Source: an uncultured bacterium (GTDB lineage Bacteria; Nitrospirota; Thermodesulfovibrionia; Thermodesulfovibrionales; Thermodesulfovibrionaceae). From it: 52,538 nt of DNA. The notes beneath the pieces are model-generated. The model was not told where the DNA came from, searched no databases, and worked only from the letters and a program-made list of their open reading frames with translations. Shown in pieces: positions 2,285-2,927 of the stretch. Position 1 is the first letter of the stretch, and each line of letters begins with the position of its first letter. The stretch covers positions 1 through 52,538 of the forward strand of contig CALLBR010000025.1 in NCBI GenBank assembly GCA_937998865.1, given 5' to 3'. Made by a program: the position numbers and the translations under genes.

Positions 2285-2393
2285 ATCTGAGACAGCAGGT
2301 GCCTAAAGGCTTAAAGGGCTTGACCGCCTGCCGAGATTAGGGAAAAGAGAGTGTTTCATCCTCATATGCACCTTTGCTGTCCAAGAAAGGAGG
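2285..2393 (+). promoter_or_regulatory. L10-type ribosomal protein leader (rplJL autoregulation)
   Basis: The 138-base gap between rplA and rplJ folds around a long-range stem: CAGC+AGGTGC (2293-2302) pairs with GCACCT+GCTG (2368-2373 and 2376-2379) with a two-T bulge. This closing stem, with enclosed hairpins and a purine-rich GGGAAAAGAGAG segment, matches the known L10(L12)4-binding leader found before rplJ in many bacteria. The stem ends seven bases before the AAAGGAGG Shine-Dalgarno at 2386-2393, so repressor binding could occlude it. The class assignment is by position and the closing stem; no covariance model was run. Confidence 0.75.
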
Positions 2394-2399
2394 TTTATT

Positions 2400-2927
2400 C
2401 TGAGCACCACAAAAGAAACTAAAAAAAAGAGAGTGGAAGAAATTGCTGTAAGGCTATCTAAGGCTAAATCCTTTATACTTACTGATTTTCAAGGACTTAC
2501 TGTGGCTGAGATATCAGAATTAAGACAAAACATGAGAGATTCAGGTTCTGAGTATAAGGTGTGTAAAAATACTCTTTTAAGGATAGCCTTAGGTGACGCT
2601 CCCTTTAAGGAACAATTAAAGGAAGCTTTAAAAGGCTGTACTGGTGTTGTGTTCGGTTATGATGATCCGGTGGTTGCTGTTAAAAAGACAATTGAGTATG
2701 CAGAAAAAAACGAAAAATTTAAACTAAAGTACGGTGTTGTAGAGGGAAAAGTATTTTCACCAAGGGAATTAAAGGAAATTTCCAAATTACCACCTAAGAA
2801 TGTATTATTAGGCATGCTTCTTGGTGGAATGAGTTCTCCTCTTACTAAAATGGCATATGCTATGCAAGCAGTTAATAGCAAACTTCTTTATGCATTAGAA
2901 GCATTAAAAAATAAAAAAGCTGAATAA
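2400..2927 (+). CDS. rplJ: Ribosomal protein L10 (uL10), apparent CTG start
   Basis: L10 anchors L7/L12 dimers to the ribosomal stalk. The first conventional start, GTG at 2433, gives 164 residues ([21 protein letters not shown]) and lacks a Shine-Dalgarno. The open frame continues upstream as [11 protein letters not shown] to a CTG at 2400, six bases after a perfect AAAGGAGG (2386-2393). That gives 175 residues and restores an N-terminal helix of the length usual for bacterial L10, so I chose CTG. ATT at 2397 is an alternative but is only three bases from the Shine-Dalgarno. A C-for-A base error at the start is also possible. Confidence 0.85.

Follow-up and report, generated by a model that had tools for sequence, protein, structure and literature searches.

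A conserved CTG start codon on rplJ in the class Thermodesulfovibrionia and its possible role as a brake on L10 synthesis

No ATG, GTG or TTG stands where rplJ, the gene for ribosomal protein L10, should begin in a 52,538-nucleotide stretch of DNA from an uncultured bacterium of the Thermodesulfovibrionaceae (hereafter the window), and a mechanical ORF caller picks the GTG at 2433 at the cost of eleven residues. This raises the question of which codon begins the gene, whether that codon is a maintained feature of the lineage, and what purpose it may serve. The comparisons described below place the start at a CTG that is shared by most of the class Thermodesulfovibrionia. The best explanation, with a probability of about 0.6, is that ordinary initiator tRNA begins translation at this CTG behind a near-perfect Shine-Dalgarno (SD) sequence, and that L10 synthesis is held in check by the weak codon, which serves as a standing brake.

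Start site of rplJ

The window begins with the gene order tuf-rpmG-tRNA-secE-nusG-rplK-rplA-rplJ-rplL-rpoB-rpoC, in which all names were assigned by eye except that of rplJ, which has a PF00466 match. Read from the CTG at 2400-2402, rplJ occupies 2400-2927 on the plus strand and comprises 175 codons plus a stop. The ATG-started genes rplA (L1; 1575-2261) and rplL (L7/L12; 2942-3331) flank it upstream and downstream on the same strand. The locus also contains a tRNA gene between rpmG and secE (313-386), the anticodon of which reads by eye as CCA (Trp), and an rpoC that starts at a TTG (7308) three bases past the end of rpoB.

The original prediction had placed the start of rplJ at CTG 2400 on the strength of the SD sequence AAAGGAGG (2386-2393, plus strand), which is separated from the in-frame CTG by the six bases TTTATT, and this arrangement is confirmed in the sequence. 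Initiation at GTG 2433 does drop eleven residues, as had been claimed, and the CTG start gives an L10 of normal length: the CTG-started translation aligns residue 2 on residue 2 of Bacillus subtilis L10 and residue 4 on residue 4 of Thermotoga maritima L10 (1zav), so that the CTG corresponds to residue 1. Alignment with L10 genes of close relatives finds CTG at the same place in 12/12 own-genus genomes with a readable start, each from a separate species, and a base error at 2400 is therefore excluded for practical purposes. The second start that had been offered, ATT at 2397, was rejected, as it lies just 3 nt from the SD and is not conserved, the codon before the CTG being ATT in 3/12, AAT in 8/12 and ACT in 1/12 genus members. 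Translation of rplJ from CTG 2400 is thus strongly supported by comparative sequence evidence, namely class-wide conservation, SD spacing, a full-length L10 product, and, in many relatives, an in-frame stop a short distance upstream.

A search of the 1.75 Mb genome for the strict motif AAAGGAGG-N5-7-CTG returned 10 sites, against 2 for the reversed motif, and among these 10 rplJ is the sole case of a recognisable gene that has no ATG to start from instead. The others comprise two sites that adjoin an in-frame ATG, five that yield frames of 1-5 aa, one within a 134-aa frame that resembles by eye the interior of another gene, and one that opens a 127-aa frame. The presence of many CTG starts in this genome is not supported by this strict-motif search.

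Conservation of the CTG within the class

The start codon could be read in 140 of the 144 class genomes with an L10 match, the remainder being two partial genes (G015 and G117), one in two pieces (G047), and G070; 80 named loci overlap these genomes, with class membership judged by eye from record titles and sequences and one locus labelled Nitrospinota. With the codons allowed near an SD restricted to ATG, GTG, TTG, and CTG, a start caller assigned CTG in 116 of the 140 genomes, ATG in 15, TTG in 9, and GTG in none; CTG occurred in at least one genome of 17/21 families and GTG in no family. Because an NTG-only rule could shape such a result, the homologous alignment column was also read without any codon rule, giving CTG 110, ATG 14, TTG 9, and other codons 6 among 139 class genomes. 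Genome G155, earlier anchored with a pattern that demanded CTG, was left out of this unrestricted column and is counted in the caller's 116/140. By either reading (110/139 or 116/140), a start other than ATG, GTG or TTG is found at the homologous place in many relatives. The six other readings are those of G074 (f19), G078, G082, G090, G110 (f20), and G120. The first five have a called CTG further upstream, behind a longer N-terminus, with G082 also carrying in-frame TTG, GTG, and ATG codons 6-15 nt ahead of its CTG, and G120 has CTT in the column and ATG one codon earlier. The L10 proteins of families f19 and f20 (for example at loci L196, L202, and L207) apparently have a longer N-terminus, with the CTG upstream of the aligned column.

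If translation began elsewhere, at ATT 2397, at an upstream codon or at GTG 2433, the CTG would be an internal leucine. infC provides a precedent for ATT as a rare start, and an in-frame GTG lies 9 nt upstream in 22 CTG genomes, 21 of them in family f16, in which it overlaps the SD. However, ATT is confined to the 3/12 genus members noted above, and the unrestricted column holds CTG, ATG or TTG in 133/139 genomes and another leucine codon once (the CTT of G120, after an ATG), whereas five real leucine columns of L10 use all six codons. In 57/116 CTG genomes, moreover, there is no in-frame ATG, GTG or TTG upstream before the previous stop, and in 39/116 an in-frame stop lies within 36 nt upstream. 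A start elsewhere is the least probable of all the readings considered here. In the 116 CTG genomes the next in-frame ATG, GTG or TTG lies a median of 30 codons downstream, and callers limited to these three codons are predicted to truncate L10 there.

Neighbouring genes do not share this start. A similar caller, with CTG allowed, found no CTG start in rplK (131), rplA (136), rplL (139) or rpoB (136) of the same loci (0/542); the homologous start is ATG in 135/136 loci for rplA and in 139/139 for rplL. The caller made two CTG calls among 91 nusG genes, each directly before an ATG. Among the leucine codons of the window's nusG-rpoC genes, CTG is the least used (13/320).

The rate at which the start codon changes was estimated from a 180-row L10 tree, with changes counted among the 140 class genomes. 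The called start codon changed 10 times, against 35, 44, and 46 changes at the flanking offsets -1, -4, and +5 and 44-57 codon changes in five conserved internal leucine columns. The second and third bases of the start codon are invariant by construction, since the caller admits NTG only, and the 10 changes of its first base compare with 12-25 at the first base of the conserved leucine codons and with 7 and 8 at the first two bases of codon 2, which makes the first base slow without being exceptional. The low count for the start codon is read here as a sign of selection, against the rival view that the CTG arose once, proved adequate behind a strong SD, and was retained by chance or because the site changes slowly. 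The distribution fits a single gain, a poor codon is tolerable with a strong SD, and the first-base count lies near that of the conserved leucines. Yet the flanking sites changed several-fold more often on the same tree, a single C to T change would give TTG, and the CTG is present throughout the genus even though the window is AT-rich (G+C 34%), all of which makes a frozen accident rather improbable. As judged from the unrestricted column, the 0/542 count in the neighbouring genes, and the slow change on the tree, the CTG is a conserved start codon and not a sequencing error. Its conservation in most relatives suggests that inefficient production of L10 is useful and not an accident.

Shine-Dalgarno sequence and L10 leader

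A full SD at a distance of at least 5 nt precedes 95/116 CTG-started and 7/9 TTG-started rplJ genes, and a strong or extended SD at proper spacing, of the kind seen with infC-class starts, is thus found in 95/116 genes with CTG. None of the 15 ATG-started rplJ genes has it, their SD being weaker or only 3-4 nt away, and both states occur within one family in f4 and in f12. An association of like kind between SD strength and start codon is described by Belinky and others in the accessible text of their survey (PMC5622118). The pattern within the class is suggestive only of a tuning of one initiation rate, and no significance is claimed for a trade-off because the independent events are few (2 well-supported pairs and no more than 5 in all, with a non-significant sign test). 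A full SD at this distance is also found in just 13/130 rplK, 4/136 rplA, 51/139 rplL, and 0/136 rpoB genes; since ATG-started neighbours mostly do without it, ATG-started rplJ genes may simply resemble ordinary ATG genes. The trade-off was rejected as proof of compensation on both counts. In family f3 (for example L204, L205, and L223), rplJ starts with ATG in 8/9 genomes, has a weak SD, and is preceded by both leader motif strands in 1/9, which represents a natural loss of the CTG, SD, and leader arrangement.

The region upstream of rplJ resembles the L10 leader RNA RF00557 (2268-2408, plus strand; 38.6 bits, E 5.1e-05), although the match does not reach the gathering score of 44. The presumed L10 site is composed, on the plus strand, of a 5' strand, GACAGCAGGTG (2291-2301), and a 3' strand, CGCCTGCCGAGA (2325-2336), the latter invariant in 7 aligned genus leaders (7/12 available). 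The first seven bases of the 5' strand, GACAGCA (2291-2297), are complementary to a TGCTGTC box (2375-2381, plus strand) that adjoins the SD, which leaves the 5' strand two alternative partners, its own 3' strand and the box just ahead of the SD. A CCTC at 2360-2363 of the plus strand, replaced by CCTTC in many genus members, is a possible anti-SD element that could hide the SD. A match of at least 7 Watson-Crick pairs between 5' strand and box is found in 88 of the 116 leaders with a 5' motif (those of 100 CTG, 11 ATG, and 5 TTG genomes), compared to 1.4% of letter-shuffled boxes, and in some families the match consists of different letters with the two-way choice kept. By regex, both strands of the L10-site motif lie upstream of rplJ in 12/12 genus members; the 5' motif is present in at least 100/116 CTG genomes and both strands in at least 89/116, counts that are lower bounds because the regex was made by hand from these sequences and misses some variants. 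These features suggest that the leader is a switch at the SD, which L10 binding may hide.

Such a leader invites the explanation that the weak codon contributes to the switch itself, with slow initiation at CTG giving the leader time to refold, or L10 time to bind, and so sharpening repression. The position of the leader ahead of the SD, its frequency among CTG genomes, and the two mutually exclusive pairings near the SD all favour this. It is, however, at odds with family f10, in which 10/10 genomes are without the leader motif, the rplA stop lies 1-3 nt before the CTG, and the CTG is kept. Four genomes of f20 without the motif (rplA stop 37-101 nt upstream) also keep CTG, though there the CTG is less certain, and the converse is seen in f4 and f8, where all 6 ATG genomes have both motif strands. 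The 5' motif is also missing from G079 (f16, CTG), and the rplA distance is missing for G155 in the leader table. Because f10 has lost the leader and keeps the CTG, the leader switch is probably not the whole reason for the codon, and this explanation is considered unlikely as a whole. In f10 rplJ is possibly coupled to rplA in place of a leader; by eye, loci of this family (for example L026 and L027) have an apparent short hairpin over the SD. A further alternative is that RNA structure or a bound protein near the start, and not weak initiation, explains why the C of the codon is maintained. Structure extends through the leader as far as the SD, and the predicted fold of the own sequence pairs the T and G of the codon, but it leaves the C itself in a hairpin loop, and the CTG is kept in f10 without a leader, so that this alternative is very improbable. 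A general brake on L10 synthesis fits these observations better than a role in leader feedback.

Proposed brake and known weak starts

Outside the class, rplJ also departs from ATG. Of 70 other-class genomes in which L10 was matched, 40 from other Nitrospirota families were selected and read by eye: TTG begins rplJ in 15, GTG in 12, ATG in 13, and CTG in none. One of the outgroup genomes (G233) was called CTG by the caller and is ATG by eye. Among 54 named loci outside the phylum, which were chosen by L10 similarity and so are not a fair sample of bacteria, non-ATG starts were read in 32/53 rplJ, 0/50 rplA, and 2/53 rplL genes. TTG and GTG are frequent rplJ starts at the loci L056-L111 and L236-L275, which lie outside the class, and ATG is the usual start of rplA and rplL there. 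The caller used outside the class also gave CTG for 5/45 rplK and 1/36 rpoB genes outside the phylum and for 2/41 rplA genes of other Nitrospirota, and left several genes startless; these CTG calls are probably errors caused by nearby locus ends or by distant homology, and the rplK and rpoB rows of this caller were excluded from use. In the loci sampled, rplJ thus tends toward weak starts, of which CTG is the extreme.

The own initiator tRNA is ordinary, with arm GGGCTCATAACCC and anticodon CAT, and the idea of a special initiator was rejected as this canonical arm gives no sign of one. An E. coli initiator mutant, altered in the anticodon stem, discriminates less against CUG (PMC11497404), and the own initiator arm shows nothing like that mutant as it is described in the accessible text of that study. 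That a CUG start is productive cannot be taken for granted: in one study (PMC9845219), GUS was undetectable in both E. coli and chloroplasts when its reporter gene began with CUG. In the standing-brake explanation, ordinary initiator tRNA would start rplJ at CTG 2400, placed there by the near-perfect SD; ribosomes would bind the site well and start rarely, and L10 would be made at a limited rate. The next gene, rplL, by contrast starts with ATG.

Some thermophiles carry six L12 per L10. One L10 binds four L12 in the stoichiometry given in the accessible part of a published account (PMC2904383), and a brake would be sensible on this analogy since rplL starts with ATG in all loci read: limited L10 would help to hold the ratio at several L12 per L10. 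A counterpoint is that rpsT is also weak-started in some bacteria, according to the available text of PMC10931766. Under the brake, L10 synthesis would also respond to the conditions of initiation, the IF3 level among them. In most of the class the L10-type leader upstream may hide or free the same SD, so that feedback would act atop the brake, probably at the same SD. A point against the brake is that in f10, with 1-3 nt between the two genes, coupling with rplA may carry part of the work. A more ambitious form of the standing-brake explanation, which is offered tentatively, is that the class-wide selected CUG is a fixed governor of L10 output, in which a maximal SD is balanced against the weakest NUG codon. 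L10, the stalk, and the L10-L12 repressor might then respond to the supply of IF3 or initiator tRNA, which would link operon feedback to initiation capacity.

The best-known precedent for a weak start in the translation apparatus is infC, which encodes IF3, starts at AUU, AUC or AUA, and is autoregulated by IF3. The analogy with infC drawn in the original prediction proved apt, in that infC starts with ATA in 25/27 genomes of the order (16 of the own genus and 11 of other families), a few bases past a GGAGGT-like SD (loci L316-L342; in the own genome L327 1480-1494, which lies on C28 near 42158). A regex missed or misplaced 7 of these 27 starts, of which 5 more proved to be ATA by eye and two (G019 and G020) are not ATA; a second G019 copy (L343) was left out. 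ORF callers would miss this ATA start. Like infC, rplJ is a translation-apparatus gene with a conserved weak start, an SD, and a weak codon that would limit initiation. Unlike infC, in which the mismatch to the anticodon is at the third base, the CUG of rplJ mismatches at the first, and L10 is not known to influence the choice of start codon. An infC starting at ATA is also reported for S. aureus (PMC13009471, accessible text).

Comparable pairings of a weak codon with an extended SD are described, in the accessible parts of the respective reports, for two other systems. In S. aureus, cvfC1 and ccpN have AUU/AUA starts behind an extended SD, with ∼10% of the AUG reporter output in poor medium (PMC13009471); codons and genes differ from those considered here, and cvfC1 and ccpN were found by profiling. 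The sigR gene of Streptomyces has a conserved GTC start (32/34 species) behind an extensive SD and is repressed by IF3 (PMC5472188). It resembles rplJ in its conserved non-canonical start, and differs in being a sigma factor gene in one genus with IF3 dependence tested, whereas rplJ is a ribosomal protein gene with a class-wide start known from sequence. Among ribosomal protein genes, rpsT (S20) has a UUG start in some gammaproteobacteria, for which a role in autoregulation has been proposed (PMC10931766). UUG is a common alternative start, however, and the rpsT case holds in several families only, with no operator RNA found according to the available text of that study. The leader itself is akin to that of B. 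subtilis rplJL attenuation (RF00557) in preceding rplJ and offering mutually exclusive pairings; the B. subtilis leader, as described in the accessible text of PMC4538822, ends transcription, whereas the alternatives of the class leader lie at the SD, which would suggest control of translation.

In the wider literature, CUG starts are rare in bacteria: 20 annotated cases in 69 genomes are quoted in the available text of one study (PMC9845219), and a survey counts 2 switches from AUG to CUG among 61,358 ancestral AUG starts (PMC5622118, accessible text). Literature searches found no published description of the CTG start of rplJ in this class. An arXiv paper is said to treat genes that prefer non-AUG starts and may list rplJ. 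The class-wide CUG start and the several kinds of natural exceptions to it form a ready comparison set for the purpose of a weak start codon. The CTG of rplJ joins the known weak-start cases of infC (AUU/AUA), rpsT (UUG), and sigR (GTC), and differs from them in both codon and gene.
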